64,000 nt of DNA from Sipunculus nudus (Eukaryota > Annelida > Sipuncula > Golfingiida > Sipunculidae), in assembly GCA_026874595.1 (NCBI GenBank), contig CM049318.1:44062456-44126455 (forward strand). The letters are read 5' to 3'. The number at the start of each line of letters is the position of its first letter. Position 1 is the stretch's first letter. The translations under genes were made by a program, and so were the position numbers. Positions 1 through 64,000 of this stretch are shown here, piece by piece. A model generated the notes under the pieces. It made no database searches, was not told where the DNA came from, and saw nothing but the letters and a program-made list of their open reading frames with translations.

Positions 1-2514
1 TATATTCATGAATGCATTCATGAATACATTTTGAAAGTATTTGCACTGGTATTCATATACTTTCATTTTTACCTGAATTCCAATTCTTTATGCAAGACAT
101 TTTATAATGGAGTACATATTAATATTCGTATTTAAATACAACTGCAAAGTTTTCCCACCATTACTGGCATTTATTCAGTTTTCACTAAACAATTATGTTG
201 AGAATCCAGAATATACAAAATTCACACATTTAAATTATGATCAAAAGACCTGGTTTTATGGCTTTTATTTATATTTTAAAAAAATGTAATATATTCATTT
301 TGGACTAATTTCACATCAATGTACACACTAGACACAGTAGGAATCTAGATTAATAATATCAACTGCATCTTTGTCTATCATTAATTTCCTTCATATGATC
401 CCTAATGATTAGTAATGAATAATATGATTTACTTTTTTATCATTAAAATTGAACTGAAAAATACCATAGGTGACTGCATGGTGTTATTTGGAGTACGTGA
501 CATTCTATCCATCGATACAAGATTCTTTTATCATCAGTAACTGCAAGTTGATTTCTTGTTATTATAAACTAACAAATTCTTTTTTATTTTTCTTTAATTT
601 GTTATTAAAAAAACATTAAAATTTATTAATTTATTGTTAATTGTTATGTTGTTGGTTAAAACTACTAGATGAGTTGGGTTGGACACCTGGATCAACTGTG
701 GCTGGCCATAAGCTGCCTATCTGCAACAGTGTATGGCTCGCCTCAAGCATGCATAATTTGCTGAAAGTTCAACAAGGTCAACATACAGGTGACTCAAGAG
801 GGGCTGGAGAGAGTTAAGGTCTGACATGGTCTCATAAAAACATTAATAAAAGCTACAATTTTTGGCCAATTTCTTTCAGCTTTCTAAACTAAAAAGCTGA
901 AATCCTTGTGTGCATGATATGAAAATTATATCAACCGTGCTCACAGGAAACAAATGTGCCATGGTCAAAGTTGGGCAAAATTTAAGGTACTTATTTTATA
1001 TTTATACTAATAACATATAAAATTTGAAAAATTCAGGACTAATTTGGGGTATTCAATTGAATCTTGATTAAATAATGTTACATCCCTGGCAAAAAAACTC
1101 TAGCTTCAGCAATCCCCTTGTTAAGGGAGTAAATATATTTCTTGATTTTTTACATAGTGCATTATGTTTGGGCCCATAACTTAAAACAATTACGCAATAC
1201 TGACATCATTTCTGGCATATGCATAGAGAATGTATAGAAAAATATGTATATTATATATGATTAAAGTCACATCAGTGGTTTTGATATTAGGCAGTCTTGA
1301 AGTGTAACAATGGGTTTTTAATGGAAAAATGAAGTTTTTCATTAATATCTCAAAGGTATTAAGTCCTAGTGACCAAATTCTTGGCATGGTAGGGAATTTT
1401 GGAGACATCTAATTGTATGCCAAATTTTAGGAACTGAGAGCTGTAGCTGGGGAGCTGAGCTCTTGCAAACTGCATAACACTAGCTTGATGTAAACAATTT
1501 GTTACATGGTGCTTGAAAACTTGAATAAAATCTACAGTTTTTGATCAACTGGTTTCAAATTTTTGGTGTTAACAGAAAAAATGCTAACAAAAACATGCTG
1601 AGAAAATTAAATCCACAGTACTTACAGTAAAAAAACGTGCCATGGTCAAAGTTGGGCAAAATTTAAGGTACCAATTTTTTATTTTTGTTAATATTTTAAA
1701 AAATTTAAAAGATTTTGATCTAATTTTGGGTATACAATTTAATTTTGATAAACTAAAGTTATATTACTGGAAAAAAAGTCCATAGCTTTAACAAGTTTTG
1801 TGTTAAGTGATCAAATATCTTTCCTGATTTTTTACAAAATGCATTATGTTTGGGGCCATAACTTTTTTAAATTATATAATACAGACATAATTTCTGGCAT
1901 GTACATAGGAACTATATAGAAGAATATTTATGGTAAATATGAGGGAAAACAGATGAGTGGTTTGGATATTAGGCAGTCCTGAAGTGTGAAAATAGGTTTT
2001 TAATAAAAAATTGAGGTTTTTCCTTAATTTCTCAAAGGAACGAAGTCGCAAAGACCCAGTTTTCGGCTTGGTAGGAGATCTTGGGGACATCTAACATTAT
2101 GCTGAATTTTGGATTCCTAGGTCTTACGGTTTCAAAACGTGCCACATCTACGGACGGACGGACGGACGGACGGACGGACGGACGGACGGACAGACGGACG
2201 GACGACGGACAATGGACCACGACTATAGCTCAGATGACTTATAGTCAGCTGAGCTAATAAAAAATTGAGGTTTTTCCTTAATTTCTCAAAGGAACGAAGT
2301 TGCAAACACCCAGTTTTCGGCTTGGTAGGAGATCTTGGGGACATCTAACATTATGCCGAATTTTGGATTCCTAGGTCTTACGGTTTCAAAACGTGCCACA
2401 TCTACGGACGGACGGACGGACGGACGGACGGACAGACGGACGGACGGACAGACGGACGGACGACGGACAATGGACCACGACTATAGCTCAGATGACTTAT
2501 AGTCAGCTGAGCTA
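1..2514 (+). mobile_element. F1a Helentron-like element, 5' end cut by the window edge, 3' end duplicated
   Basis: It matches the interior and 3' part of the complete copies at 4870-7498 and 56251-58860. It contains the palindromic run ATTCATGAATGCATTCATGAA near position 5. The 3' end carries a GACG microsatellite (2149-2210) and a hairpin (2226-2256) with arms TAGCTCAGATGACT and AGTCAGCTGAGCTA around TAT. The last 255 bp or so is then repeated, with its own microsatellite (about 2403-2468) and hairpin (2484-2514). No protein-coding capacity was recognised. Confidence 0.8.
2001..2514 (+). repeat. Tandem duplication of the F1a 3' terminus
   Basis: The sequence starting TAATAAAAAATTGAGG at 2001 recurs at 2255, immediately after the first terminal hairpin, and runs to a second hairpin at 2514. 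The join falls at TAAT, shared by the element end (GCTAAT) and the internal sequence (TTTAATAAAA). Microsatellite lengths differ by about 4 bp between copies. Confidence 0.9.
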
Positions 2515-2845
2515 ATAATACAGATGGCACCACCAGTCTACAGGAACTGATGGAACACCTCTTGATCAATATGTATGCCAAAAATCATGACCATCAGTGT
2601 TGTAGTTATTGAGATGTTGCAATTTGTTTTTTATCAAATTTTCCATTATTCTTTGGGGTAATTAGGAGCCCAACAGCTCAAAGGATATATGTAACAGAGA
2701 CCTTATTTCAGGTTTCCATGAAGACTTTTCATAGGTCTCTCACTGTGTGAGGAATGAAGATTCTAGGTCCAGTCTTTACAATTTGTGCCCTGTTGACAGG
2801 TGTTCACAGTTTTAAAGGTCTCAAAAATAGAGAAAACAATTCGTA
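2515..2845 (+). repeat. Single A monomer between two F1 elements
   Basis: It begins TACAGATGGCACCACCAGTCTACAG, cf. the GGTGGCGCCACC box of the A arrays at 33.9-36.6 kb and 59.2-62.3 kb, and ends in the usual linker CTCAAAAATAGAGAAAA...TTCGTA. An F1 3' end abuts it on the left and an F1 5' end on the right. Confidence 0.75.
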
Positions 2846-3335
2846 AACAAGGGACCTATGGGTCACGGCACTCAGCTGTTATATATGATTAAAAAATATG
2901 ATTTAGAAATGAGGCACATGCTGGTTTTATGTGGTAAAAAAATAAGCTGTATTATGAGTTGTTGTTGTTAAGCTTATGTATGATTTTGATAGTACCTTTG
3001 GAGACAGGGAAGAGGATTGATTTCATTTATTTTATTAACAAATGGAGTGCTATTGTCACACAGATTTTGACTTGGCCATATAACTTATAAGCAGAACATA
3101 TAATATAAGAGTTTAACTATTTATTAAAAAAATTTACAAATATTGTCCCAAATATAATTTTTTATTAAAAATAATAAGAGAATCGTATGATTTTTTAAAA
3201 TAAAATATAACTGAAGTGATTATTAAAATAATATTAAAGAATATATTCATGAATGCATTCATGAATACATTTTGAAAGTATTTGCACTGATATTCATATA
3301 CTTTCATTTTTACCTGAATTCCCATTCTTATGAAG
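2846..3335 (+). mobile_element. F1a 5' fragment
   Basis: It starts AACAAGGGACCTATGGGTCA and then GGCACTCAGCTG, the F1 left end, and follows the complete F1a copies as far as the TTTTTACCTGAATTCCCATTCTT region. There it breaks and joins an F2 body. The 3' half is missing. Confidence 0.78.
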
Positions 3336-4869: not shown

Positions 4870-7498
4870 AACAAGGGACCTATGGGTCACGACGCTCAGC
4901 TGTTATATATGATAAAAAAATATTATTTAGAAATGAGGCACATGCTGGTTTTGTGTGGTAATAAATATAAGCTGTATTATGAGTTGTTGTTGTTTAGCTT
5001 ATGTATGATTTTGATAGTACCTTTGGAGACAGGGAAGAGGATTGATTTCATTTATTTTATTAACAATTGGAGTACTATTGTCACACAGATTTTGACTTAG
5101 CCATATAACTTATAAGCAGAACATATAATATAAGAGTTTAACTATTTATTAAAAAAAATAACAAATATTGTCCCAAATATAATTTTTATTAAAAATAATA
5201 AGAGAATCATATGATTTTTTAAAATGAAATATAACTGATATGATTATTAAAATAATATAAAAGAATATATTCATGAATGCATTCATGAATACATTTTGAA
5301 AGTATTTGCACGAGTATTCATATACTTTCATTTTTACCTGAATTCCCATTCTTTATGCAAGAAATTTTATAATGGAGTACATAATCATATTCGTATTTAA
5401 ATACAATTACAAAGTATTCGCACCATGTCTGGTATTTATTCAATTTTCACCAAACAATGATGTTGAGAATCCAGAATATACAAAATTCACACATTTAAAT
5501 AATGATCATAAGTACCTGGTTTTATGGCTTTTATTTATATTAAAAAATAACTGTAAAAAATTCATTTTGGACTAATTTCACATCAATGTACACACTAGAC
5601 ACAGTAGGAATATAGATTAATATTATCAACTGCATCTTTGTCTATCATTAATTTCCTTCATATGATCCCTAATGATTAGTAATGAATAATATGATTTACT
5701 TCTTTATCATTAAAATTGAACTGAAAAATGCCATAGGTGACTGCATGGTGTTATTTGGAATATGTGACATTCTACCCATCGATACAAGATTCTTATATCA
5801 TCAGTAACTGCAAGTTAATTTCCTGTTATTATAAACTAACAAATTCCTTTTTTATTTTTCTTTAATTTGTTATTAAAAACCAATAAAAATTTATTTATTC
5901 ATTGTTTATTGTTATGTTGTTGGTTAAAACTACTAGATGAGTTGGGTTGGACACCTGGATCAACTGTGGCTGGCCATAAGCTGCCTGGATTCCTGTATGC
6001 CTCGCCTCAAGCGTGCATAATTTGATGAAAGGTCAACAAGGTCAACATACAGGTGACTCAAGAGGGGCTGGAGAGAGCCAAAGTCTGACAGGGTCTCATA
6101 AAAAACATTAATAAAAGCTACAATTTTTGGCCAATTTCTTTCAGCTTTCTAAACTAAAAAGCTGAAATGCTTATGTGTGCATGATATGAAAATTATATCA
6201 ACAGTGCTCACGGGAAACAAACGTGCCATGGTCACAGTTGGGCAAAATTTAAGGTACTAATTTTATATTTATACTAAATAAAATTTGAAAAATTCAGAAC
6301 TAATTTTGGGTATTCAATTGAATCTTGATTAAATAATGTTACATCCCTGACAAAAAAATCTCTAGCAATGCCCTTGTTAAGGGAGTAAATATATTTCTTG
6401 ATTTTTTACAATGTGCATTATGTTTGGGCCCATAACTTAAAACAATTACGCAATACTGACATCATTCTGGGATGTGCATAGAGAATGAAAAATATGTATA
6501 TTGTTTATGATTAAAGTCAGATCAGTGGTTTTGATATTAGGCAGTCTTGAAGTGTAACAATGGGTTTTTAATGGAAAAATGAAGTTTTTCATTAATATCT
6601 CGAAGGTATTAAGTCCTAGTGACCAAATTCTTGGCATGGTAGGGGATTTTGGAGACATCTAACTGTATGCTGAATTTAAGGAACTTAGAGCTGAAGCTGG
6701 GGAGCTGAGCTTTTGCAAACTGCATAACACTAGCTTGATGTAAACAATATGTTACAAGGTGCTTGAAAACTTGATTAAAATCTACAGTTTTTGATCAACT
6801 GGTTTCAAATTTTTGGTGTTAACAGTTGAAATGCTGACAAAAACATGCTGTGAAAATTAAATCCACAGTACTTACAGGAAAAAAACGTGCCATGGTCAAA
6901 GTTGGGCAAAATTTAAGGTACCAATTTTTTATTTTTATTAATATTTTAAAAAATTTAAAAGATTTTCATCTAATTTTGCGTATACAATTTAATTTTGATT
7001 AATTAAAGTTATATTACTGGAAAAAAGGTCCACAGCTTTTACATTTTTTGTGTTAAGTGATCAAATATCTTTCCTTATTTTTTTCAAAATGCATTATGTT
7101 TGGGCCAAGAACTTTTTTAAATTAAATAATACAGACATAATTTCTGGCATGTACATAGGAACTATATAGAGGAATATTTATGGTAAATATGAGGAAAAAC
7201 AGATGAGTGGTTTTGATATTAGGCAGTCCTAAAGTGTGAAAATAGGTTTTTAATAAAAAATTGAGGTTTTTCCTTAATTTCTCAAAGGAACGAAGTTGCA
7301 AAGACCCAGTTTTCGGCTTGGTAGGAGATCTTGGGGACATCTAACATTATGCCGAATTTTGGATTCCTAGGTCTTACGGTTTCAAAACGTGCCACATCTA
7401 CGGACGGACGGACGGACGGACGGACGGACAGACAGACGGACGGACGACGGACAATGGAGCACGACTATAGCTCAGATGACTTATAGTCAGCTGAGCTA
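4870..7498 (+). mobile_element. Complete F1a Helentron-like element inserted in F2
   Basis: This 2.63-kb non-autonomous element begins AACAAGGGACCTATGGGTCA then CGACGCTCAGCTG. It ends with a GACG microsatellite (7401-7449) and a 31-nt hairpin (7468-7498) closing CAGCTGAGCTA. The left GCTCAGCTG and right CAGCTGAGC are inverted copies. The uninterrupted F2 copy at 22840-22870 reads straight through the insertion point, so no target bases were duplicated. No Rep or helicase reading frame is present; short frames reading VRPSVRPS are the microsatellite read backwards. Confidence 0.85.
7468..7498 (+). repeat. F1 3' terminal hairpin
   Basis: Arms TAGCTCAGATGACT and AGTCAGCTGAGCTA pair at 13 of 14 positions around loop TAT. 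It directly follows the GACG microsatellite and the stretch GACAATGGAGCACGACTA. Confidence 0.9.
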
Positions 7499-9404: not shown

Positions 9405-11304
9405 AACAAGGGACCTATGGGTCTCAACGCTCAGCTGACGTTAACCTTGAAGGTAAAAATCTGAAATAATATCAAATGGAGATAAAGTGTAAGAGGAAGA
9501 GGTAATAAAGGCCATGGTTGGTTTATATGATTGGTTTGTATTGATGAGCAGGAAATTGTTGCAAAAAATATTTTGTGACCTGACCATGTGTTTCCTAATG
9601 TTGAAACTAAAGCATATGAGCAGTTTGTGAACAAATGATCTGTACTATTACCATGATCATTAATTGGTTTTTTGATTAACTGTTGACATTTCAGTAGTTT
9701 ACACATTTGTTCAATCGAATCTTTTTTTTTGTATAATATTATTAAATATATATGTATTTTTTTTATGAAATGTATACAGTTGAAATAGAGCTAATAAACA
9801 ACATAAAACAGGGCAAACAAAGCCTGATCTCAAATTCTGCTGAGGCAGGAAAATAATGAACAAATGTTTGTATTAAATCCATTTTTTTTATCACATCAAT
9901 TATTTTCTAATTTAAGTTTATATTTCTATACATTTCCAATTTAACATATATATCTGAATATAAAAGTTGATTCATAATTCTCAATTGCATCATCATAAAT
10001 CTCAATCTTGTCAGATAACACCACATCATGCATACAAATGTTTATTTATTTTTTACCACAAAAATATATCTTTCAAATCTGCAAAACAATAAATATCTAA
10101 AAATAATACTTGATTTAGATTTCACAATTTTTAATTGTGTCTTTAATTATCCATAATGTGCTTCATATTTTATAATAATTTAAGCATACTGATGGGTTCA
10201 ATTATATTTGTTAAAATCATTTAAAAGAAATTTGATTTCTTTAAAAATGTTACATTACACAACATTGCATCTTCTTGATTACACCTTGAATTATTTTTTC
10301 AAGGAAAGTTTTTGCATATCGGAGTGGAAACAGCATTACAATTAAGGAGATACAGTGAAAACAATAACAATTAGTGCATAACACTTGGTGGGTTGGGTTT
10401 GCGGGGGTTGGGGGGGGGGGTGATTGGGGTGGTGATATGAGAATAACTGTACACCTGTCACAGCAGGGGATCTCCCCCAGTGACTGTAACAAATCAGAAA
10501 CCCTGGCATAGCTGACTTCCAGTGACCTGGAGTGGGACCCTGCATCTGTAATCAAAGCAAGTGACTACAGAAAAAAAATCAATAACTAGCTTAATTTTCA
10601 AGCTTTTATTTTCAAATTTCAGATTTAGACAAACTAAATATTTATGTTTACATGCTGTGAAAATTAAATCAATGGTGCTTACAGGAAAAAAACGTGCCAT
10701 GGTCAAAGTTGGGCAAAATTTAAGGTACTGAAATTTTTTTTATGCTAATAACTTAAAAAATTTACAAAATTCAGATCTAATTTTCGGTAAACAATTGAAT
10801 CTTAATTAAACATAGTTATATACTTGAGAAAATAGACTCTAGTTTCAAAATTTTTCATGTTAAGTGAGTTATTATTTTTCCTGATTTTTTACAAAGTCCA
10901 TTATGTTTGGGCCCATAACTTAAAGAATTTATAGTTTACAGACTTAATTTCTTGCATGTACATAGGAACAATATAGAGGAATATTTATGGTAAATATGAG
11001 GAAAAACAGATGAGTGGTTTTGATATTAGGCAGTCCTGAAGTGTGAAAATAGGATTTTAATAAAAATTGAGGTTTTTCCTTAATTTCTCAAAGGAACGAA
11101 GTCGCAAAGACCCAGTTTTCGGCTTGGTAGGAGATCTTGGGGACATCTAACAATATGCTGAATTTTGGATTCCTAGGTCTTACGGTTTCAAAACGTGCCA
11201 CATCTACGGACGGACGGACGGACGGACGGACGGACGGACAGACGGACGGACGACGGACAATGGACCACGACTATAGCTCAGATGACTTATAGTCAGCTGA
11301 GCTA
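9405..11304 (+). mobile_element. Complete F1e element (F1 subfamily) inside an A-monomer linker
   Basis: It begins AACAAGGGACCTATGGGTC then AACGCTCAGCTGACG and ends with a GACG microsatellite (11208-11252) and hairpin (11274-11304). The left half (GTTAACCTTGAAGGTAAAAA, a G-run at about 10400-10420, AGTGACCTGGAGTGGG) differs from F1a; the right half from about 10650 (CATGCTGTGAAAATTAAATC) is shared with F1a. The flanks are A-monomer linker on the left and a GGTGGCACCACC box on the right. Length is 1.90 kb with no recognisable protein. Confidence 0.82.
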
Positions 11305-11655
11305 AAAACAGGTGGCACCACCAGTCTGCAGGAACTGATGAAACTTCTCATGATCAATATGTATGCAAAAATTCATGACCATCAGTGATGTAGTTAATGA
11401 GATATTGAAGTTTTTGTATGAAATTTTGAATATTCTGGGGGTTGCTTTGGGGCCCCATAGCTCGAAGGATATGGGTAACAGAGACCTAATTTCTGGTTTC
11501 CAAGGAGATTTTTTATGGACCTCTCAGAATGTAAAATTACAAAATTCTAGGTCCAGCGGTTACAATTTGTGCCAGGTTAATGGACAGACGGACAGACGGA
11601 CGGACGGACAAAGAGTGATCGCTATAGCTCAGATGACTTACAGTCAGCTGAACTA
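11305..11655 (+). repeat. A monomer with F1-type 3' end
   Basis: It opens with AACAGGTGGCACCACCAGTC and closes with a short GACG/GACA run (11582-11610) and hairpin (11625-11655) ending CAGCTGAACTA. It is probably the 3' end of the F1 element whose A linker was hit by F1e. Confidence 0.75.
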
Positions 11656-38140: not shown

Positions 38141-38253
38141 AAAACATGACAACATGTCAAGATCTTGGCAAAATGTCTGCACTCAAACAGAAATTCAAAG
38201 TAGCATGACTTGGTGAAGAGTGAGTGATACGAAAAGCAACTGCTGCTTTCTAC

Positions 38254-38671: not shown

Positions 38672-38850
38672 AACAAGTGACCCATGGGTCATGATGCTCA
38701 GCTGACTGGGAAGAGATTGCAAAAGATATTTTATCATCTGAATGGAAGTATATACCCATTCAACTGAAGCATCAAACAGATTAACCAACAGGCTGAGATT
38801 GTGCCTGTATTAATATATCTAAAAAATAGAGAAAAAATGCGTAAACTTTA
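38672..38850 (+). mobile_element. F1 5' stub, parent of the nest ending at 45079
   Basis: AACAAGTGACCCATGGGTCA then TGATGCTCAGCTGACTGGG, close to the stub at 32531. It ends in the linker AAAAATAGAGAAAAAATGCG, where F2 is inserted. The parent resumes at 41303 and 44050 and ends with a hairpin at 45079. Confidence 0.75.
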
Positions 38851-41302: not shown

Positions 41303-41630
41303 AAAAAAGCCCGAACAAATACATGTGGTGCCACCAGGCTGCAGAAACTGATGAAACACGCCATGATCAATATCCATGCAAACAATTATGGTGATCTCTG
41401 CAGTATTTGTTCAGATACTTCAGCTTTTGTATCAAATTTTCCATTATTCTGAGCTGTACTTTAGAGTGCCATAGCTCAAAGGATATGGGTAACAGTGACC
41501 TAATTTCAGGTTTCCATGGAGACTTTTCATGGGTCTCCCTGTGTGTCAAGAATGAAGATTCTAGGTCCATTCGTTACAATTTGAACCCTGTTGACAGATA
41601 ACTACATCCTTAAAGGTCTCAAAAATAGAG
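41303..41630 (+). repeat. A monomer of the parent F1
   Basis: It opens GAACAAATACATGTGGTGCC and runs to the linker CTCAAAAATAGAG, where the F1 element at 41631 is inserted. Confidence 0.78.
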
Positions 41631-44049
41631 AACAAGTGACCCATGGGTCATGACGCTCAGATGCCAAGCATGACCTGCGACATCATGGGCTGAGATTCAC
41701 AACTTCCAGTTAAATTTTGAAGACCCAATTTGCCAATATGTTGAAATTTTCTACGACAACAGAAATATATATCACCTATGTCTGGTTAAAACACAGTGAA
41801 TTGATGGTCTGAGGAAAATGCATGATTGTTAAGGTATCCAGAACTATTCCCATAGCTTCCTTGATACCTGTCAGTCTCGAAAGGAACACCACAAAGGGCA
41901 AATATAAGATCAAAATATATAGCAAAAAATCAAGGAAATCCATGCAAGAATTATTGAGAAACAGGTGCTTCTGTATGAATTTTTATTCAATACAAGCCAA
42001 CTGTACTGCACTTTCATATATGAAGATAATATTTATTAAGAAATATTTGACCCTATCCTTTGCAAGATTACATTAATATACATCCGACTGCCTTCACTTT
42101 AACAGTTCTTGAGATAATATGATGAAAAGGAATTTAAAGATGGTTGCCTGGTGGCCATTTTGGACTTCTGACAGGTCTGAAATCAGATAACAACCATTCT
42201 CTAAATCGGACCAAAAATTGAAGGAAAATTACTGAAACTGCACTGAAAAAAGGATTTCTAAGGTGGCTAACTGGCAGACAAAATGGATTTCTGACAAGTC
42301 TGACATTTGATATCTCACATCCTCCCATAAAAGACCAAACTTGGAGCAAATTCTCCAAATGATGTTACAGTAATGAATGTCCAAAACAATTCAAAAGGAA
42401 TGTTCAGGCGCTCATATCAGATTTATAGATATGCAAATGTAAAAGTGTAGGTCCAATATTTTTTTATTATCACTCTGCTTTTCAATGGGGTCAGCAGGGT
42501 TGGTAAACTGCAAAACCTGAAAGAAAAGAAATGCAGAAAGCATGACTAGAGTCTTGTAATAAAATAAAGCCATCCAAAATCAAGTACACATCCACATATT
42601 ATGAGAACAAACACTTGCTTTTATATGTGGTGATTTATATAAAAAAATTCAGTTATCTAGGAAACTTTGTTTATTGCTATGATTCCATAAAATAAACTGC
42701 AAAATGTTCCCATCATTTAATAAATCAGTAGCTATACCTTAATACTATACTCTCATAGTGTTAATTCCTGGCTGAAGTATTCCAACAACAGTGTTTTGTT
42801 ATGCAGTAACGAGGTACTTATCACTCAGCCTTATCACTTAATAGCCTGATACAAAAGGGAGTCATATGTCACCAGTGTCACTCACAATTACAGCCACAGG
42901 TTGAGATGTACCAGCTGGAGTGCAAGCTTATATATACAAGAAAAATAGAGATGGTCTACAAAATAAGTTGACCTGATATATGACCTTGGCCTTTTGCCCA
43001 CATATCAACTGGATTCTCTCTGAATGATGGGTAACTACTAACCACTTACATCTGGCCGGGTGTAATTACTTAGCAACCAATGAGTGAATAACTTAGACCT
43101 GCAACCTTTAACCTCCTGACCAGCTGACCTCAAAATCAATTAGTTATTTCTTCATGCAAAAAGACCCATAAATATGAAGTTTGAATCACATTGAGTGATG
43201 CATAGATGTGGCATATGTGAAAGACTGAAGGTTTGGGTTGAACAGTTTCACTTGAAATATGTTCACAAGCATTTAGAACAATATTGTGACATTGACCTTA
43301 GACTTTTTGAACTCAAATTCAACAGGCTTCTTCCCCTATTGGTAGGTAAGCCATATATGACAGATGGAAAGTATAGATTGAAAAGTTTGCCTGAAAATGA
43401 CTCCACGCAAGAAGAGGTGTGAACTTGACCTTTGACCTCAAAATCAACAGGTCTTTTCCCCTGTTGGCAGAGAAGCGATATCAGTGCTGAAAGGTTTGGA
43501 ATGAAAGGTCTAGCTTGAAATGTGTCCACAACTTTTTCAAAGAAGTGGATCCTGTGACCCTGACCTTTGACCTTGTGACTTCAACATCTATAGGATTCTT
43601 CTCCCACTTAGTAGGTGAGCTATATGTGAAAGATCAAAGAATTGGGATGAAAGGTTTGGCTTAAAATGCATCCACAGGCTTTTCAAAGAAGTTGGTTCTG
43701 TGACCTTGACCTTTGACCTTGTGACCTCAAAATAATTATGGTTCTTCCCCTGTTGGTAGGTGAGCTGTATGTGAAAGATGGAAGGTTTGGGATGAAAATT
43801 TTGGCTAAAAGAATTATTTCTGGGGGGTGCAAACACACCCCATAACTTCGAGAATATAGGTCACAGTGACCTAATTTCAGGTTTGCAAGGAGATCTTTTT
43901 AGAACCTCTAAGACTGCATAGGGTTCATGGCCCTAGCCCCTACGGTTACGATTTGTGCCCTGCTAACGGCCGGCCGGACGGACAGACGGAAGGACGACGG
44001 ACAAAGACCCATCGCTATAGCCCAGCATGACTGAAAGTCAGCTGAGCTA
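41631..44049 (+). mobile_element. Complete F1f element with C units, inserted in an A linker
   Basis: The start is AACAAGTGACCCATGGGTCA then TGACGCTCAGATGCCAAGC. The F1f interior runs to about 42700, followed by about 280 bp seen nowhere else in the window (42700-42980). C half-units with DR1 cores lie near 43424, 43557 and 43705, then a partial A-like last unit from 43805. It ends with a GACG run (43968-44000) and hairpin (44018-44049). The flanks, AAAAATAGAG on the left and AAAAATTGTAAAC on the right, form an uninterrupted A linker when joined. Confidence 0.78.
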
Positions 44050-45079
44050 AAAAATTGTAAACATTTGAAAAACACAGGAGGCGCCACCAGTCTGCAGAAA
44101 CTGATGAAACATCTCATGATCAATATGTATGCCAAAAATCATGACCATCAGTGATGTAGTAAATGAGATATTGAAGTTTTTGTATGAAATTTTTCACTAT
44201 TCTGGGGGGTACTTTGGGGCCCCAAAGCTCGAAGGATATGGGTAACAGAGACCTAATTTCAGGTTTCCATGGAGACTTTTCATAGGCCTCTCAGAATGTC
44301 AAGAATGAAGATTCTAGGTCCAGTCTTTACGATTTGTGCACTGTTAACAGATGTCCACATTTTTAAAGGTTTCAAAAATAGAGAAAAAAATTCGTAAAAA
44401 ATGGAAAAAAATAGAGGTGGCGCACCCAGGCTGTAGAAACTGATGAAACACTCCATGATCAATATCCATGCAAACAATTATGGTGATCTCTGCATTAGTT
44501 GTTCAGATACTTCAGCTTTTGTATCAAATTTTCCATTATTCTGAGCTGTACTTTGGAGTGCCATAGCTCAAAGGATATGAGTAACAGAGACCTAATTCCA
44601 GGTTTCCATGGAGACTTTTCATGGGTCTTCCTGTGTGTCAAGAATGAAGATTCTAGGTCCAGTCGTTACAATTTGAACCCTGTTGACAGATAACTACATC
44701 CTTAAAAAAAAAATAGAGAAAAAAAATTGTAAAATTGCATAAACTGATGAAACATCTCATGATCAATATGTATGCCGAAAATCATGACCATCCGTGATGT
44801 AGTTAATTAGATATTGAAGGTTTTTTTAATGAAATTTTTTGCAATTCTGGGGGGTACTTTGGGGCCCCATAGTTCGAAGGATAGGGGTAACAGAGACCTA
44901 ATTTCTGGTTTCCAAGGAGATTTTTCATGGAGCTCTCAGAATGTCAAGCTACAAGATTCTATGTACAGCAGTTATGATTTGTGCCTGGTTAACGGACAGA
45001 CAGACGGACGGACAGCTAGACGGACGACAGACAAAGAGTGATCACTATAGCTCAGCATGACTGAAACTCAGCTGAGCTA
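44050..45079 (+). repeat. A array (three monomers) with F1 3' end
   Basis: Boxes near 44077 (GGAGGCGCCACC) and 44415 (worn), and a third unit without a box (about 44735). It ends with a microsatellite (44993-45033) and hairpin (45048-45079). This is the 3' end of the parent F1 begun at 38672. Confidence 0.8.
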
Positions 45080-45347
45080 ACAAGTGACCCAGGGGTCATG
45101 ACGCTCAGCTGACTAGGGAAACATTCAGAAAAGGAATTTTATCAATTCCCAGTTATGTAGATGGTATCCCCATTCAACTTAAGCATAGCTCCGAGGATAT
45201 GGGTAACTGAGACCTAATTTCAGGTTTCCAAGGAGATTTTTTATGGACCTCAGTGGATGTCAATTTACAAGATTCTAGGTGCAATGGTTACAATTTGTGC
45301 CCTGTTAACAGACAACCAACTCTTTCAAGGAAAGCGTAAAAATTTGA
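45079..45347 (+). mobile_element. F1 5' stub fused directly to the preceding F1 3' end
   Basis: CAGCTGAGCT is followed without spacer by AACAAGTGACCCAGGGGTCA then TGACGCTCAGCTGAC. After about 110 bp it switches to an A-monomer 3' half (GCTCCGAGGATATGGGTAAC) and ends in the linker before the next F1 start. Confidence 0.78.
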
Positions 45348-47657: not shown

Positions 47658-49245
47658 AACAAGGGACCCATGGGTCACTGTGCTCAGCTGAAGTTGACCT
47701 TGAAGGTAAAAATCTAAAATAATATCAAATGGAAATAAAGTGTAAGAGGAAGAGGTAATATAGGCTATTGTTTGTTTTATATGATTGGTTTATATTGATG
47801 TGCAAGAAATTGTTGCAAATAATGTTTTGTGACCTGACCATGTGTTTCCTAATGTTGAAACTGAAGCATGTGAGCAGTTTGCGAACAAATGATCTGTACT
47901 ATAACCATGATCATTAGTTGGCTTTTTGATTAACTGTTGACATTTCAGTAGTTTACACATTTGTTCATTTTAATCTATTTTTTATAATATATATTATTAA
48001 ATATATGTATTTTTTTATTTTATGAAATGTATACAGTTGAAATATAACTAATGTCCACAGTCCACAGATGAAAGGACTTGTGGTGGTGGCGGTGGTAAAG
48101 GGGGGGGGGGGGTTGTGTGGAATCGTGGGAGTTACAATATATCTGTATTATTATAGTGTAAATACATAGGATTTTCACTTAATTCAACAATGCTTACAGG
48201 ATAAAAGAGTTTATTCAAAATAACTTATTACTTAAAAAAGGACAGACAGGCTGGTAGACAAACAAAGCTGATAATATATGAAGTTTCAATTATTTCCTAA
48301 TTTTTTATGTATACCAAATTTTTTTAAAGTTTTACATCTGCAATAATACACAACTGAATATAATTTGCTTTCAAATTTCAGACTTAAATAGCTTAATTAC
48401 AAACACATACAGCATATGAAAGTTATTTCAACAGTGCTTATATGAAAAATTTTATAATTAATATATATTTAATGATAACGGAGAGATGATGGACAGAGCT
48501 GATCACTTTGTTCCATTCTCCTAAGGCAAGAATATGTTTCAATAAAATCTTAATTTTTTCTAATCCTATTATTTTTTTAATTTAATAAATTGTACACATT
48601 TGCAATAAAAACTAATGTCCCAGTGCACAGGAATCAATGGCAGCAGGGAGGGGGGGGGGAGAGATGGTGGGATAAATAATGCTCCTACATACACATACAG
48701 GGCAAACAAAGCCTGATCTCCAATTCTGCTGAGGCAGGAAAATAATTAACAGATGTTTGTATTAGATCCTCATTTTTTTGTCACATCAATTTTTTATTAT
48801 AAGTTTATATTTCTATACATTCCAATATGACATATATATCTGAATATAAAAGTTGATTCATAATTCTAAATTGCATCATCAAAAGTCTCAATCTAGTCAG
48901 ACAACCCTACATCATGCATACAAATGTTTATTTATTTTTACCACAAAAATAAATTTGCAAAACAATAAATATCTAAATATTATACTTGATTCAGATTTCA
49001 CAATTTCAAATTGTGCCTTTATTTATCCATAATTTGCTTCATATTTTATAAACTTAAGCATACTGATGGGTTTAATTATATTTGTTAAAATCATTTAAAA
49101 GAAAATAGATTTCTTTAAAAATGTTTCATTAAGACAACATGACATCTCCTGAATTACACCTCGAATTACATTTTCAAGGAAAGTTTTTGTATATTGGAGT
49201 GGAAATAGTAACAATTACTGCATAACACTTGGTGGGTTAGGTTTG

Positions 49246-49286
<41 letters not shown>

Positions 49287-49435
49287 AATTGGGGTGTTGA
49301 TTTGAGAATAACTGTACACTTGTCACAACAGGGGATCTCCCCAGTGACTGTAACAAATCAGAAACCCTTGCATAGCTGACTTCCAGTGACCTGGAGTGGG
49401 ACCCTGCATCTGGACAAAGCAACTGACTACAATAA
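47658..49435 (+). mobile_element. F1e element, left part
   Basis: It starts AACAAGGGACCCATGGGTCA then CTGTGCTCAGCTGAAG and follows F1e, with G runs near 48100-48112 and 48650-48659 and a 39-nt G run at 49247-49285. It joins F1a sequence near 49436 (GTGCTGGTTTTGTGTGG). It supplies the uninterrupted version of the F2 insertion site at 20565/24251. Confidence 0.72.
49247..49285 (+). repeat. 39-nt G homopolymer
   Basis: An unbroken G run in the F1e position that holds shorter G runs in other copies (10400-10420, 24936-24950). A likely G-quadruplex former and a place where assembly length may be unreliable. Confidence 0.95.
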
Positions 49436-49712
49436 AGCGTGCTGGTTTTGTGTGGTAATAAATATAAGCTGTATAATAAGTTGTGGTGTTGTGGTATAAT
49501 AATTGGGGTGTTGATTTGAGAATAACTGTACACTTGTCACAACAGGGGATCTCCCCAGTGACTGTAACAAATCAGAAACCCTTGCATAGCTGACTTCCAG
49601 TGACCTGGAGTGGGACCCTGCATCTGGACAAAGCAACTGACTACAATAAAGCGTGCTGGTTTTGTGTGGTAATAAATATAAGCTGTATAATAAGTTGTTG
49701 TTGTTTAGCTTA
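49286..49712 (+). repeat. 214-bp tandem duplication across the F1e/F1a join
   Basis: TAATTGGGGTGTTGATTTGA at 49286 recurs at 49500, and about 198 bp of each copy looks identical, including the F1e/F1a junction. The duplication is therefore younger than the junction, or is an assembly artefact next to the G run. Confidence 0.9.
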
Positions 49713-54404: not shown

Positions 54405-55040
54405 TTAAATCCACAGTACTTACAGGAAAAAAACGTGCCATGGTCAAAGATGGGCTAAATTTAAGGTACCAATTTTTTATTTTTGTTAATATTTTAAAAA
54501 AATTTAAAAGATTTTGATCTAATTTTGGGTATACAATTTAATTTTGATTAATTAAAGTTATATTACTGGAAAAAAAGTCCATAGCTTTAACATGTTTTGT
54601 GTTAAATGATCAATATCTTTCCTGATTTTTTACAAAATGCATTATGTTTGGGCTCATAACTTTTTAAAATTATATAATACAGACATAATTTCTGGCATGT
54701 ACATAGGAACTATATAGAGGAATATTTATGGTAAATATGAGGAAAAACAGATGAGTGGTTTTGATATTAGGCAGTCCTGAAGTGTGAAAATAGGTTTTTA
54801 ATAAAAAATTGAGGTTTTTCCTTAATTTCTCAAAGGAACGAAGTTTTCGGCTTGGTAGGAGATCTTGGGGACATCTAACATTATGCCGAATTTTGGATTC
54901 CTAGGTCTTACGGTTTCAAAACGTGCCACATCTACGGACAGACGGACAGACGGACGGACGGACGGACGGACGGACAGACGGACGGACGACGGACAATGGA
55001 CCACGACTATAGCTCAGATGACTTATAGTCAGCTGAGCTA
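54405..55040 (+). mobile_element. F1a right part with 3' end
   Basis: It resumes TTAAATCCACAGTACTTACA and runs to a GACG/GACA microsatellite (54935-54989) and hairpin (55010-55040). Confidence 0.85.
54938..54989 (+). repeat. GACG/GACA microsatellite of an F1 3' end (representative)
   Basis: Every intact F1 3' end has such a run between GTGCCACATCTACG (F1a/e) or GCCCTGTTAACG (A type) and the hairpin. Others: 2149-2210, 2403-2468, 7401-7449, 11208-11252, 11582-11610, 28948-28980, 29317-29348, 36554-36595, 43968-44000, 44993-45033, 58783-58811, 60811-60845, 62186-62238. Confidence 0.9.
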
Positions 55041-56250: not shown

Positions 56251-58860
56251 AACAAGGGACCTATGGGTCACGACGCTCAGCTGTTATATATGATAAAAAA
56301 ATATTATTTAGAAATGAGGCACATGCTGGTTTTGTGTGGTAATAAATATAAGCTGTATTATGAGTTGTTGTTGTTTAGCTTATGTATGATTTTGATAGTA
56401 CCTTTGGAGACAGGGAAGAGGATTGATTTCATTTATTTTATTAACAAATGGAGTACTATTGTCACACAGATTTTGACTTGGCCATATAACTTATAAGCAG
56501 AACATATAATATAAGAGTTTAAATATTTATTAAAAAAAATTACAAATATTGTCCCAAATATAATTTTTATAAAAAATAATTAGAGAATCATATGATTTTT
56601 TAAAATGAAATATAACTGATATGATTATTAAAATAATATTAAAGAATATATTCATGAATGCATTCATGAATACATTTTGAAAGTATTTGCACGAGTATTC
56701 ATATACTTTCATTTTTACCTGAATTCCTATTCTTTATGCAAGAAACATATAATGGAGTACATAATCATATTCGTATTTAAATACAATTACAAAGTATTCA
56801 CACCATGTCTGGTATTTATTCCGTTTCACCAACCAATGATGTTGAGAATCCAGAATATACAAAATTCACACATTTAAATAATGATCATAAGTACCTGGTT
56901 TTATGGCTTTTATTTATATTAAAAAATAACTGTAAAAAATTCATTTTGGACTAATTTCACATCAATGTACACACTAGACACAGTAGGAATCTAGATTAAT
57001 ATTATCAACTGCATCTTTGTCTATCATTAATTTCCTTCATATGATCCCTAATGATTAGTAATGAATAATATGATTTACTTCTTTATCATTAAAATTGAAC
57101 TGAAAAATGCCATAGGTGACTGCATGGTGTTATTTGGAATATGTGACATTCTACCCATCGATACAAGATTCTTATATCATTAGTAACTGCAAGTTAATTT
57201 CCTGTTATTATAAACTCACAAATTCCTTTTCTATTTCTCTTTAATTTGTTATTTAAAACCAATAAAAATTTATTAATTTATTGTTTATTGTTATGTTGTT
57301 GGTTAAAACTACTAGATGAGTTGGGTTGGACACCTGGATCAACTGTGGCTGGCCATAAGCTGCCTGGATTCCTGTATGCCTCGTCTCAAGCGTGCATAAT
57401 TTGATGAAAGGTCAACATACAGGTGACTCAAGAGGGGCTGGAGAGAGCCAAAGTCTGACAGGGTCTCATGAAAAACATTAATAAAAGCTACAATTTTTGG
57501 CCTATTTCTTTCAGCTTTCTAAACTAAAAAGCTGAAATCCTAATGTGTGCATGATATGAAAATTATATCAACAGTGCTCACAGGACACAAACGTGCCATG
57601 GTCACAGTTGGGCAAAATTTAAGGTACTAATTTTATATTTATATTAATAACTTATAAAATTTGAAAAATTCAGAACTAATTTTGGGTATTCAATTGAATC
57701 TTGATTAAATAATGTTACATCCCTGACAAAAAAATCTCTAGCTTCAGCAAGCCCCTTGTTAAGGGAGTAAATATATTTTTTGATTTTTTACAAAGTGCAT
57801 TATGTTTGGTCCCATAACTTAAAACAATTACGCAATACTGACATCATTCTGGCATGTGCATAGAAAATGAAAAATTTGTATATTATTTATGATTAAAGTC
57901 AGATCAGTGGTTTTGATATTAGGCAGTCTTGAAGTGTAACAATGGGTTTTTAATGGAAAAATGAAGTTTTTCATTAATATCTCGAAGGTATTAAGTCCTA
58001 GTGACCAAATTCTTGGCATGGTAGGGGATTTTGGAGACATCTAACTGTATGCCAAATTTAAGGAACTAAGAGCTGAAGCTGGGGAGCTGAGCTCTTGCAA
58101 ACTGCATAACACAAGCTTGATGTAAACAATATGTTACATGGTGCTTGAAAACTTATTAAAATCTACAGTTTTTGATCAACTGGTTTCAAATTTTTGGTGT
58201 TAACAGACAAAATGCTCACAAAAACATGCTGTGAAAATTAAATCCACAGTACTTACAGGAAAAAAACGTGCCATGGTCAAAGTTGGGCAAAATTTAAGAT
58301 ACCAATTTTTTATTTTTATTAATATTTTAGAAATTTTAAAAGATTTTCATCTAATTTTGGGTATACAATTTAATTTTGATTAATTAAAGTTATATTACTG
58401 GAAATAAGGTCGATAGCTTTAACATTTTTTGTGTTAAGCGATCAAATATCTTTCCTGATTTTTTACAAAATGCATTATGTTTGGGCCCATAACTTTTTTA
58501 AATTAAATAATACAGACATAATTTCTGGCATGTACATAGGAACTATATAGCAGAATATTTATGGTAAATATGAGGAAAAACAGATGAGTGGTTTTGATAT
58601 TAGGCAGTCCTGAAGTGTGAAAATAGGTTTTTAATAAAAAAATTGAGGTTTTTCCTTAATTTCTCAAAGGAACGAAGTTGCAAAGACCCAGTTTTCGGCT
58701 TGGTAGGAGATCTTGGGGACATCTAACATTATGCCGAATTTTGGATTCCTAGGTCTTACGGTTTCAAAACGTGCCACATCTACGGACGGACGGACAGACG
58801 GAGGGACGACGGACAATGGACCACGACTATGGCTCAGATGACTTATGGTCAGCTGAGCTA
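56251..58860 (+). mobile_element. Complete F1a element
   Basis: At 2.61 kb it is closely similar from end to end to 4870-7498. The left end is AACAAGGGACCTATGGGTCA then CGACGCTCAGCTG. The GACG tract is short (58783-58811), and the hairpin (58830-58860) has arms TGGCTCAGATGACT and GGTCAGCTGAGCTA. Confidence 0.85.
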
Positions 58861-58862
58861 AA

Positions 58863-59016
58863 AACAAGGGGCCCATGGGTTGCGTCGCTCAGCTGAATTC
58901 TGGAAAATATTAGTAACTGCAAAATATTTTTATTTCTTATGGTTTTTCCATGTATATTACCATTTGAAAAGCTATGAGGAAATGGCCCAGCTTAAATGAA
59001 ACTCTGTAAATTATAA
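58863..59016 (+). mobile_element. F1 5' stub next to an F1 3' end
   Basis: AACAAGGGGCCCATGGGTTG then CGTCGCTCAGCTGAA, two bases after the preceding hairpin. About 150 bp follow, similar to the stretches after 45348 and 45831, then the next F1 start. Confidence 0.7.
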
Positions 59017-62000
59017 AACAAGTGACCCAGGGGTCATGACGCTCAGCTGACCAGGAAGACATTGACAAAAGTAATTTTATCATCTGAATGTCAAATTTGA
59101 ATGAAATACTTTTTCCAAACTTGACCTTTTGTATAAAATCATCCAATATTCATTGGGGTACTATGGAGCTCTGTAGCATGAAAGATATGGGTAACAGACA
59201 CCTATTTTCAAGGTTTACAAGATGACTTTTCAGGGGTCTCCCAGCATGTCAAAAAATAAAATTCTAGGTCCAGTTATTATGATTTGTGCCCTGTTAACAA
59301 ATCCAAATGTTTATTCTGGGGGGTATTTCAAAGCCGCATAGGATGAAGGATATGGGTAACAGAGATGTTATTTCAGGTGCACAAGGAGACTTTTCAGGGG
59401 CCTCCCAGCATATCAAGAAAGGAGATTCTAGGTCAAGTCATTATAATTTGTGCTCTGTTAACAGATGACCAAATCTTTATTCTGGGGAGTACTTCGGAGC
59501 CCCAGAGCATGAAGGATATGGGTAACAGGGAACTCATTTCGGGTTTCCATGTAGACCTTTTATGGGCTTCCCTGGAGGTGAGGACAGAAGATTCTAGGTC
59601 CAGTCATAATGATTTGTGCCCTGTTAATATATGACCAAATCTTTATTCTGGGGGGTACTTCAGAGCCCAATAGCTCACAGAATATGGGTAACAGGGACCT
59701 TATTTCGGGTTTCCATGTAGACACCTTTTATGGGCTTCCCTAGAGGTGAGGACAGAAGATTCTAGGTCCAGTCATTATGATTTGTGCCCTGTTTACAGAT
59801 GACCAAATGTTTAAAGATCACAAAAGTAGAGAAAAGAAATCGTAAAAAAAAAAAAAAAAATATAGGTGGCGCCACCAATCTCCAGAAATTGATGAAACAC
59901 TCCATGATCAATATCCATGCAAAGAATCATGGTGATTAATGCATTAGTTGTTCAGATACTTGAGCTTTTGTATTAAATTTTGCATTATTCTGGGGGGTAC
60001 TTCAGAACCCCATAGCTCAGAGGTTACGGGTAACAGAGACCTAATTTTGAATTTTTTAAGGAGACTTTTCATGGGCCTCTCAGCATGTCAAGAGAGAAGA
60101 TTCTAGGTCCAGTTGTTACGATTTGTGCCATGTTAACAGATGACCACATCTTATGAGGTCTCAAAAATAGAGAAAAAAATTCGTAAAAATAAAAAAAATA
60201 CAGGTGGCGCCACCAGAATGCAGAAACTGATGACACATTCCATGATCAATATCCATGCAAAGAATCATGGTGATCACTGCAATAGTTGTTTAGATACTTG
60301 AGCTTTTGTATCAAATTTTCCATTATTCTGGGGGGTACTTCGGAGCCCCATAGCTCAAAGGTTATGGGTAACAGAGACCTAATTTCAGGTTTCCAAAGAG
60401 ACTTTTTATGGGCCTCCCTTTATGTCAAGAGAGAAGATTCTAGGTGTAGTCGTTACGATTTGTGCCCTGTTAACAGATGGCCGCATCTTAAGAGGTGTAA
60501 AAAATAGAGAAAAATATTGGTAAAAATCGAAAAAATACAGGTGGCGCCACCAGTCTGCAGATACTGATGAAACACTCCATGATCAATATCCATGCAAAAA
60601 ATCATGATGATCAATGCATTAGTTGTTCAGATACTTGAGCTTTTGTATCAAATTTTCCATTATTCTGGGGGGTACTTCGGAACCCCATAGCTCGAAGAAT
60701 ATAGGTCACAGTGACCTAATTTCAGGTTTACAAGGAGAATTTCCATAGACCTCCCAGGATGTTAAGTAAGAAGATTCCAGTTCTAGGGGTTACGATTTGT
60801 GCCCTGTTAACGGACGGACGCCCGGACGGCCGGACGGACGACGGACAAAAGGTGATCCCTATAGCTCAGATGACTTACAGTCAGCTGAGCTAAAAATACA
60901 GGTGGAGCCACCAGAATGCAGAAACTGATGAAACATTTTATGATCAATATCCATGCAAAGAATCATGGTGATCAATATAATAATTGTTCAGATACTTGAG
61001 CTTTTGTATCAAATTTTCGATTATTCCGGGGGGTACTTCGGAGCCCCATAGCTCAGAGGTTATGGGTAACAGAGACCTAATTTCAAGTGTTTAAGGAGAC
61101 TTTTCATGAGCCTCTCAGCATGTCAAGAGAGAAGATTCTAGGTCCAGTTGTTACGATTTGTGCCATGTTAACAGATGACCACATCTTATGAGGTCTCAAA
61201 AATAGAGAAAAAAATTCGTAAAAATAAAAAAAATACAGGTGGCGCCACCAGACTGCAGAACCTGATGAAACATTCCATGATCAATATCCATGCAAAGAAT
61301 CATGGTGATCAATGCAATAGTTGTTCAGATACTGGAGCTTTTGTATCAAATTTTCCATTATTCTGGGGGGGTATTTCGGAGCCCCATAGCTCAGAGGTTA
61401 TGGGTAACAGAGACTTAATTTCAGGTTTCCAAAGAGACTTTTCATGGGCCTCCCGGAATTTCAAGAGAGAAGATTCTAGGTCCAGTCATTACAATTTGTG
61501 CCTTGTTAACAGATGACCACATCTCAAGAGGTCTCAAAAATAAAGAAAAAAATTCATTAAAATCGAAAAAATATAGGTGGCGCCACCAGACTGCAGAAAC
61601 TGATGAAACATTCCATGATCAATATCCATGCACAGAATCATGGTGATCAATGCAATAGTTGTTCAGATACTGGAGCTTTTGTATCAAATTTTCCATTATT
61701 CTGGGGGGGTACTTCGGAGCCCCATAGCTCAGAGGTTATGGGTAACAGAGACTTAATTTCAGGTTTCCAAAGAGACTTTTCATGGGCCTCCCGGAATTTC
61801 AAGAGAGAAGATTCTAGGTCCAGTCATTACAATTTGTGCCTTGTTAACAGATGACCACATCTCAAGAGGTCTCAAAAATAAAGAAAAAAATTCATTAAAA
61901 TCGAAAAAATATAGGTGGCGCCACCAGACTGCAGAAACTGATGAAACATTCCATGATCAATATCCATGCACAGAATCATGGTGATCAATGCAATAGTTGT

Positions 62001-62285
62001 TCAGATACTTGAGCTTTTGTATCAAATTTTCCATTTTTCGGGGGGGTACTTCGGAGCCCCATAGCTCAGAGGTTATGGGTAACAGAGACCTAATTTCAGG
62101 TTTCCAAGGAGATTTTTCATGGTACTCCCTGGATGTCAAGTTAGAAGATTCCAGGTCCAGTCATTATGATTTGTGCCTGGTTAACGGACAGACAGACGGA
62201 CAGACAAACCGACAGACAGACGGACGACGGACGACGGACCAAGAGTGATCGCTATAGCTCAGATGACTTTCAGTCAGCTGAGCTA
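59017..62285 (+). mobile_element. Complete F1 element carrying an A array
   Basis: This 3.27-kb element starts AACAAGTGACCCAGGGGTCA then TGACGCTCAGCTGACC and ends with a GACA/GACG microsatellite (62186-62238) and hairpin (62255-62285). Partial A units lie at 59150-59860. Boxes at 59865, 60203, 60540, 60901 (GGTGGAGCCACC), 61239, 61577 and 61915 mark full monomers, mostly 337-338 bp apart. An extra microsatellite and hairpin (60811-60892) sits inside the array. Monomers 61239-61576 and 61577-61914 are almost identical. No coding gene. Confidence 0.83.
60862..60892 (+). repeat. Internal F1 3' hairpin within the A array
   Basis: Arms TAGCTCAGATGACT and AGTCAGCTGAGCTA around TAC, preceded by a GACG run (60811-60845). 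The array continues directly with AAAATACAGGTGGAGCC. Confidence 0.9.
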
Positions 62286-62753: not shown

Positions 62754-63035
62754 AACAAGGGACCTATGGGTCACGGCGCTCAGCTGTTATATATGATTAA
62801 AAAATATGATATAGAAATGAGCCACATGCTGGTTTTGTGTGGAAATAAATACAAGCTGTATTAAGAGTTGTGGGTGTTTAGCTTATGTATGATTTTGATA
62901 GTACCTTTGAAGACAGGGAAGAGGATTGCTTTCATTTATTTTATTAACAAATGGAGTGCTATTGTCACACAGATTTTGACTTGGCAATATAACTTATAAG
63001 CAGAACATATAATATAAGAGTTTAACTATTTATTA
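62754..63035 (+). mobile_element. F1a 5' fragment, outermost of a serial nest
   Basis: AACAAGGGACCTATGGGTCA then CGGCGCTCAGCTGTTATATATG. It stops at TTTAACTATTTATTA, where other copies (5135) continue AAAAAAAATAAC, because an F1f element is inserted. Confidence 0.8.
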
Positions 63036-63729
63036 AACAAGTGACCCATGGGTCATGACGCTCAGCTGCCAAGCATGACCTGCGACATCATGGGCTGAGA
63101 TTCACAACTTCCAGTCAAATTTTGAAGAACCAATTTGCCAATTTGTTGAAATTTTCTACGACAACAGAAATATATATCACCTATGTCTGGTTAAAACACA
63201 GTGAATTGATGGTCTGAGGAAAATGTATGATTGTTAAAGAATCCAAAACTATTCCCATAGCTTACTTGATACCTGTCAGTCTCAAAAGGAACACCACAAA
63301 GGGCAAATATAAGATCAAAATATAGCAAAAAAATCAAGGAAATCCATGCAAGAATTATTGAGAAACAGGTGCTTCTGTATGAATTTTTATTCAATACAAG
63401 CCAACTGTACTGCACTTTCATATATGATGATAATATTTATTAAGAAATATTTGACCCAATGGTTGGCAAGTTTACATTAATATACATCCGACTGCCTTCA
63501 CTTTAACAGTTCTTGAGATAATATGATGAAAAGGAATTTAAAGATGGTTGCCTGGTGGCCATTTTGGACTTCTGACAGGTCTGAAATCAGATAACAACCA
63601 TTCTCTAAATCGGACCAAAAATTGAAGGAAAATTACTGAAACTGCACTGGAAAAAGGATTTCTAAGGTGGCTAACTGGCAGACAAAATGGATTTCTGACA
63701 AGTCTGACATTTGATATCACACGTCCTCC
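63036..63729 (+). mobile_element. F1f 5' fragment, middle of the nest
   Basis: AACAAGTGACCCATGGGTCA then TGACGCTCAGCTGCCAAGC; very close to 41631-42320. It stops at CACACGTCCTCC, where 42320 continues with CATAAAAGACC. Confidence 0.8.
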
Positions 63730-64000
63730 AACAAGTGACCCAGGGGTCATGACGCTCAGCTGACCAGGAAGACATTGACAAAAGTAATTTTATCATCTGA
63801 ATGTCAAATTTGAATGAAATACTTTTTCCAAACTTGACCTTTTGTATAAAATCATCCAATATTCATTGGGGTACTATGGAGCTCTGTAGCATGAAGGATA
63901 TGGGTAACAGACACCTATTTTCAAGGTTTACAAGATGACTTTTCAGGGGTCTCCCAGCATGTCAAAAAATTAAAAAATTCTAGGTCCAGTTATTATGATT
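63730..64000 (+). mobile_element. F1 5' part, innermost of the nest, cut by the window edge
   Basis: AACAAGTGACCCAGGGGTCA then TGACGCTCAGCTGACC; near-identical to 59017-59290, so probably another A-array element that continues past the window. Confidence 0.82.

Follow-up and report, generated by a model that had tools for sequence, protein, structure and literature searches.

HINE repeats of the window

The window, i.e., the whole 64,000-bp stretch analyzed here, comes from the sipunculan Sipunculus nudus (GCA_026874595.1, contig CM049318.1, positions 44,062,456 to 44,126,455) and is filled for the most part by repeats running in one direction around an exon-bearing frame of a putative minus-strand HDAC-like gene. 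Judging from their sequence, these repeats are HINEs, i.e., non-autonomous Helentron-type rolling-circle transposons, with at least two families of ends, F1 and F2. Both ends of F1 have subterminal inverted repeats: GCTCAGCTGA at the end named 5' in a preliminary description of this DNA, and its complement TCAGCTGAGC in the opposite, hairpin end. The terminal hairpin, made of the subterminal repeat and its complement, folds at −10.6 kcal/mol (z −5.65, with 0 of 200 shuffles as good); the GACCCATGGGTC palindrome at the far end, beside the matching subterminal repeat, gives a z of −0.39, with 64 of 200 shuffles as good. F1 also has a microsatellite of ACGG tetranucleotide arrays and central tandem repeats of 336–338 bp, and the F2 3' end differs from that of F1 (GCATAAGCTCACAGGTTCGCTAAAAA). 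The F1 5' end is preceded by AA in 42 of 42 matches. Pairing of ends, on the plus strand only, yields 12 complete copies of 1.4–3.9 kb with A-runs on both sides and differing flanks; a target duplication was looked for at these 12 and none was found.

As far as the excerpted accounts go, these features are shared with the HINE/DINE-1 elements, e.g., Cg_HINE of the oyster (PMC7492417) and the HINEs of mites and flies (PMC4067079), in the form of subterminal inverted repeats, terminal palindromes, a GTCC-type microsatellite and central tandem repeats. The likeness extends, in the same excerpts (PMC7492417, PMC4067079), to insertion in T-runs without target duplication and to the absence of any coding capacity seen. 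A difference visible by eye is that the subterminal repeat and palindrome of the right end stand farther from the terminus in the mite HINEs described in part of PMC4067079. The layout given in the available portion of PMC7492417 places the subterminal inverted repeat, the inverted repeat and the GTCC-type microsatellite at the left end; hence, the true 5' end would be the hairpin end, the target a T-run, and the copies sense to the minus-strand gene. Orientations are given below by the plus-strand naming of ends in the preliminary description, which runs opposite to the published one. The earlier claim that the copies lie antisense to the host gene is thus right in its own naming, whereas under the layout excerpted from PMC7492417 the same copies are sense.

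At the 5' end, the elements differ from a canonical Helitron: the latter begins with 5' TC and inserts between A and T (PMC4067079, in the portion available), while the 5' end here is CAAG and both flanks are A. The F1 end reads GAGCTA and then A-runs, making a CTAA possible, and its hairpin lies at the very end as against about 11 bp inside in the canonical Helitron (3' CTRR). A search of Rfam gave no match.

One-way orientation in the window

Comparison of the window with itself gives 896 matches, 885 direct and 11 inverted, with 10 of the inverted ones involving a single palindromic GAATACATTCAT tract and the last being a 45-bp inverted match. In terms of coverage, direct repeats take up 54,624 of the 64,000 bp and inverted repeats 298 bp. 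The F1 hairpin is near-palindromic, and its strand is therefore unreadable from the hairpin alone; it is given by a GGAC-type tract, which at the 15 hairpin ends of the window lies on the plus strand in 14 cases and is degenerate in one (38110). A scan for GACGGACGGAC with up to 2 mismatches finds 48 matches on the plus strand and 0 on the minus, and hence no CCGTCCGT tract on the plus strand of the window. Two strict scans for F1 5' ends return 9 plus and 0 minus each (10 distinct sites combined), and F2 3' ends number 3 plus and 0 minus. The strict F1 3' pattern recovers 8 of the 15 plus ends; its single match on the minus strand, at 11274, represents the palindrome of a plus end. Reversed-sequence controls for the three end patterns in the strict window scan gave 0 matches each.

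Thus, the preliminary description was right that the recognised ends run one way, that there are about 15 F1 hairpin ends, that no inverted tract stands on the plus strand and that the F2 3' ends are on the plus strand. The many minus-strand ends that it named as counter-evidence did not turn up in the strict scans, the palindrome match at 11274 apart. Its count of more than 20 F1 5' ends is reached by a looser pattern (21, all plus) but not by the strict ones. The one-way orientation in the window is explained neither by chance nor by free insertion in random orientation. The ends and associated features, in window coordinates, are as follows.

2226–2256, plus: F1 hairpin end, the canonical HINE 5' end if read on the minus strand (motif scan)
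2484–2514, plus: F1 hairpin end, in a 254-bp tandem duplication with the 2226–2256 end (motif and repeat scan)
7468–7498, plus: F1 hairpin end of the complete copy 4872–7498 (motif scan, end pairing)
11274–11304, plus: F1 hairpin end
11625–11655, plus: F1 hairpin end
28997–29027, plus: F1 hairpin end
29364–29394, plus: F1 hairpin end
36610–36640, plus: F1 hairpin end
38110–38140, plus: F1 hairpin end, tetranucleotide tract degenerate; the exon-bearing frame is 58 bp away
44018–44049, plus: F1 hairpin end
45048–45079, plus: F1 hairpin end
55010–55040, plus: F1 hairpin end
58830–58860, plus: F1 hairpin end
60862–60892, plus: F1 hairpin end of the complete copy 59019–60892 (motif scan, end pairing)
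62255–62285, plus: F1 hairpin end
4872–4902, plus: F1 5' end, named as in the preliminary description (strict scan)
32533–32563, plus: F1 5' end (strict scan)
38674–38704, plus: F1 5' end (strict scan)
45081–45111, plus: F1 5' end, immediately past a hairpin end (strict scan)
47660–47691, plus: F1 5' end, followed by sequence resembling, by eye, the unfilled site of the L022 copy
56253–56283, plus: F1 5' end (strict scan)
59019–59049, plus: F1 5' end (strict scan)
62756–62786, plus: F1 5' end (strict scan)
63038–63068, plus: F1 5' end (strict scan)
63732–63762, plus: F1 5' end (strict scan)
24225–24253, plus: F2 3' end (strict scan)
37235–37263, plus: F2 3' end (strict scan)
41277–41305, plus: F2 3' end (strict scan)
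33886–36554, plus: 336-bp tandem array, F1 central repeats (tandem-repeat scan)
59643–62185, plus: 338-bp tandem array, F1 central repeats (tandem-repeat scan)
38198–38542, minus: 115-aa open frame with a host-gene exon, class IIa HDAC-like by eye

Three further observations concern the repeats themselves. The 254-bp tandem duplication at 2001–2518 comprises the hairpin-end part of F1 including the end itself, and might reflect an error in end recognition. A 10-bp palindrome, GTGGCGCCAC, recurs over 4022–61924 (42 sites with at most 1 mismatch), often at the start of a tandem monomer. At 49247–49698, a run of 39 G adjoins a 214-bp unit present in about 1.9 copies with 100% matches, i.e., either a recent duplication or a hypervariable site.

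Host gene and the surrounding domain

Two minus-strand frames, 38198–38542 in the window and 5839–6147 in L015, resemble by eye the N-terminal part of a class IIa HDAC. A Pfam search recognised neither frame, nor did a PDB sequence search with 38198–38542 give any recognition. Farther down, catalytic exons matching PF00850 lie on the minus strand at C13:43,945,290–43,945,622 (E 2e-33) and 43,973,924–43,974,013 (E 7.3e-4, slightly over the cut-off); they stand in the expected order, 88–117 kb below the first base of the window, and share the strand of the window exon. The host gene, named by eye from the first two exons together with the PF00850 exons, is a probable HDAC-like gene on the minus strand. 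The N-terminal-like frames and the catalytic exons would appear to form a single gene with a span of at least 187 kb.

The orientation seen in the window continues well beyond it. In a sample of 264 kb of sequence spread over 584 kb (the window and twenty 10-kb stretches, −260 to +324 kb of it), 20 of the 20 stretches have the orientation of the window in the majority, with minus matches of 0–993 bp each. Across this sample, there are 17,228 direct against 628 inverted matches, the latter stemming from a handful of minus copies. Recognised ends number 94 on the plus strand (41 F1 5', 33 F1 3' and 20 F2 3') and 3 on the minus (1, 2 and 0, respectively), although these counts are not independent in that each complete copy yields two ends. 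The minus F1 3' count started at 7 matches, 5 of which were recognised by eye as palindrome artefacts and removed; a looser earlier pattern had counted palindromes as minus. Additional minus copies without recognised ends occur in L021 and L022, and L010 has an inverted pair.

Balanced totals and local domains

Genome-wide, the two orientations are balanced: 6760 plus and 6724 minus for the F1a pattern (up to 3 mismatches), 4704 and 4809 for F2 (up to 2), and 1275 and 1253 for F1b (exact). Random orientation elsewhere had been named beforehand as an outcome that would speak against a fixed direction, and it is indeed found in these totals but not locally, the orientations being strongly clustered on the listed part of contig C1. 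There, the first 100 matches listed per pattern were used, all exact and all on C1 (F1a to 19.4 Mb, F2 to 39.0 Mb, F1b to 39.7 Mb). Among these listed matches, pairs taken within and between families agree in strand in 83/86 cases at 2–20 kb, 108/130 at 20–50 kb and 130/178 at 50–100 kb, and, at longer range, in 207/325 at 100–200 kb and 2468/4936 at 1–3 Mb. The 210 merged events below 19.45 Mb among them fall into 59 strand runs; 20,000 shuffles gave 103.8 runs on average and never fewer than 74. Copies matching exactly, which are presumably young, agree in 22/23 listed pairs closer than 20 kb. Thus, in the parts of the genome covered here, nearly all recognised copies fall into co-oriented domains of gene size or more, which are common to F1 and F2, flip in sign from one to the next and balance out over the genome.

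One way in which such domains might arise is by inheritance, i.e., nesting of copies in the A-runs of earlier ones, or growth through tandem or segmental duplication; the preliminary description had proposed both asymmetric targets inside earlier copies and tandem copying. Local arrays and nested junctions are certainly present: the end duplication of 254 bp at 2001–2518 is of this kind, and the L022 copy appears to be inserted in the A-run of another HINE; judged by eye, the sequence following the F1 5' end at 47660 resembles the site of this copy in its unfilled form. Yet the 12 complete copies have differing flanks, F1 and F2 agree across tens of kilobases, and the F1 of L006 is plus, like those of L001–L005, L007 and L008, though it abuts the middle of a minus copy (that side only having been read). 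These three observations rule out local duplication or nesting as the sole cause. With A- and T-runs about equally frequent (see below), they also leave nesting in asymmetric targets as a real process but not the main one, and tandem copying as an account of local arrays rather than of the complete copies. Inheritance as the explanation of the domains is hence highly improbable, the more so as loci elsewhere in the genome follow a common rule (9/9 with the window library), as described next.

Apparent link to gene strand

Loci near kinase motifs served as gene points. The 29 loci comprise all 9 matches of a first motif, each taken as 3 kb centred on the match, and, from the 35 further matches of a second motif, 20 taken as 2 kb lying 2.5–4.5 kb upstream. 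The two motifs have 9 and 44 matches, and their reversed-pattern controls 0 and 2, respectively. With the window as library, 9 of the 29 loci are informative, and at 9 of 9 the elements point opposite to the gene, which is on the minus strand in five cases and on the plus strand in four. On C1, the listed range holds 11 gene points (zinc-finger, HDAC and kinase); for seven of them an element lies no farther than 100 kb away, and at 6 of these 7 the closest one is opposite. Among the matches listed from searches with ankyrin and ion-channel motifs, none supplied a gene point in the first 39.7 Mb of C1. Pooled, the gene points are opposite at 15/16, or at 16/17 with the host gene included (binomial p 2.7e-4). 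The data, from a small sample, support the view that the strand of a gene determines the sign of orientation around it. A search of the literature, covering open-licence papers only, turned up no paper describing Helitrons or Helentrons whose orientation is tied to genes.

These results also bear on replication as the determinant. If the elements entered the lagging-strand template, in the manner of bacterial IS608, the domains would be replication domains; a precedent is that the insertion orientation of IS200/IS605 and Tn7 tracks replication direction (PMC5371812, in the part available), and a host domain longer than the gene shown would fit. But the sign tracks gene strand at 15/16 points, and agreement on C1 fades within about 100–200 kb among the matches listed. 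Further, the sole listed F1 inside a plus-strand HDAC gene (C1:17.27–17.30 Mb) is on the minus strand, and the closest listed neighbors in the two directions, at distances of 143 and 50 kb, are on the plus strand; this double flip involves a single element. Replication direction is thus improbable as the cause.

Insertion versus survival

The uniform orientation within stretches, with a direction that appears to go with that of the local gene, suggests that either the insertion or the survival of these elements is tied to transcription. The best reading, held tentatively and at nearly even weight, is strand-specific insertion into T-runs on the coding strand of genes transcribed in the germline. 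In such a process, a HINE would enter the DNA in single-stranded form at T-runs of the coding (non-template) strand; germline transcription would expose this strand while the template strand stays covered, and the T-runs of the other strand would seldom be used. The orientation of a HINE would in that case show which way the locus is transcribed in the germline. A one-sided supply of targets was also considered as a cause. Over the 45.8 kb of the sample that do not recur within it, A- and T-runs have similar counts (A4 426/T4 386, A5 125/T5 134, A6 40/T6 48), such that targets are available for both orientations and one-sided supply is ruled out.

Several observations weigh against this reading. 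Three of the nine loci informative with the window library rest on short matches (L033, 85 bp; L048, 121 bp; L042, 192 bp), and with the 264-kb library 11 of 13 informative loci are opposite, the exceptions being L033 and L041, which match L011, L021 and L024 there. When the count takes in every C1 element on the list that lies no more than 100 kb from a gene point, only 12/17 are opposite, and one minus-strand kinase gene has an F2 of the "wrong" direction 16 kb away. The gene points are few, and the host gene itself prompted the test. Finally, the sampled domain of at least 584 kb exceeds the gene shown (at least 187 kb), which calls for further genes on the same strand, a longer gene or another cause.

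The main rival is selection, wherein both orientations insert and the one damaging splicing or polyadenylation of the enclosing gene is then lost. This predicts the observed link to gene strand, and the antisense bias of transposable elements in mammalian introns has been ascribed to such selection (PMC3088655, as excerpted). The removal of sense copies proposed in the preliminary description agrees with that link, while the signals that might do the damage give a mixed picture. On the transcript-sense strand of the domain as against the other strand, AATAAA occurs 411/332 times, acceptor-like tracts 65/16, ATTAAA 205/415 and GGTRAG 27/67. Thus, the lost orientation would bring more ATTAAA and GGTRAG into the transcript, but the one kept is richer in AATAAA and acceptor-like tracts; these mixed counts neither support nor exclude a simple purge through splicing or polyadenylation damage. 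Moreover, the bias is near-complete across the sampled domain, much of which lies tens of kilobases from the exons seen, whereas the mammalian bias peaks near exons (PMC3088655, in the portion available). The strength of bias is also about equal between the exact-match C1 copies (22/23 listed pairs under 20 kb) and the copies of mixed age in the host domain (94/97). All in all, selection is a live explanation, though a somewhat less likely one than strand-specific insertion.

Elements other than HINEs might be expected to discriminate between these readings. From a filtered list of frames in the host domain, four non-HINE coding remnants were identified by eye; all lie on the plus strand, as selection would have it, and Pfam backs one above the cut-off and two weakly. 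Against selection, L028 has a retroelement remnant on the minus strand (by eye), and at L047 a reverse-transcriptase fragment of a long interspersed nuclear element (LINE) is sense to the nearby kinase gene, with the HINE pieces there on the other strand. A control 17-mer from the LINE had one occurrence and gave no orientation comparison. The non-HINE remnants are too few to decide between insertion and survival. Separately, L021:2538–4589 holds integrase-like frames on the plus strand (Integrase_H2C2 above the cut-off, rve below), broken by a stop and belonging to a non-HINE transposon.

Parallels and implications

Parallels might be struck with two known systems. Like the elements in mammalian introns, the HINEs here are biased in orientation relative to the host gene; the mammalian bias, according to the excerpted PMC3088655, is strongest near exons and attributed to selection, whereas here it is near-complete over the sampled domain and concerns a rolling-circle element. 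With IS200/IS605, they share an insertion orientation that records the state of the target strand, though that system is bacterial and linked to replication (PMC5371812, as available) while this one is eukaryotic and apparently linked to gene strand. Among HINEs proper, the oyster Cg_HINE integrates in both orientations, and the available text of PMC7492417 makes no mention of a local or gene-linked bias; here, orientation domains appear to be tied to the strand of genes.

To our knowledge, little is understood of how eukaryotic rolling-circle transposons choose their target strand, and a near-complete local bias tied to gene strand offers a testable handle on that choice. If the bias stems from insertion, HINE orientation would by itself be enough to predict gene strands where a genome has no annotation, and would reflect past germline transcription. 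In a stronger and more speculative form, which we regard as possible rather than probable, HINEs and Helentrons would join only into displaced coding-strand T-runs in the germline, and their tens of thousands of copies would amount to a fossil record, spread over the genome and readable without RNA, of which way germline transcription runs. If selection is instead the cause, this would be an unusually strong case of the purging of intronic copies. Either way, balanced genome totals mask the pattern, which may therefore have gone unnoticed in other HINE-rich genomes.

A last observation arose from HDAC-like sequences elsewhere in the assembly. The G000 contigs C61, C62, C72, C74, C77, C79–C83, C89 and C90 carry full-length uninterrupted HDAC-like frames of 330–334 aa, six of them equal-scoring, and C61 and C62 have arrays of ankyrin motifs as well. 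These contigs look bacterial, perhaps from a symbiont, within an animal assembly.

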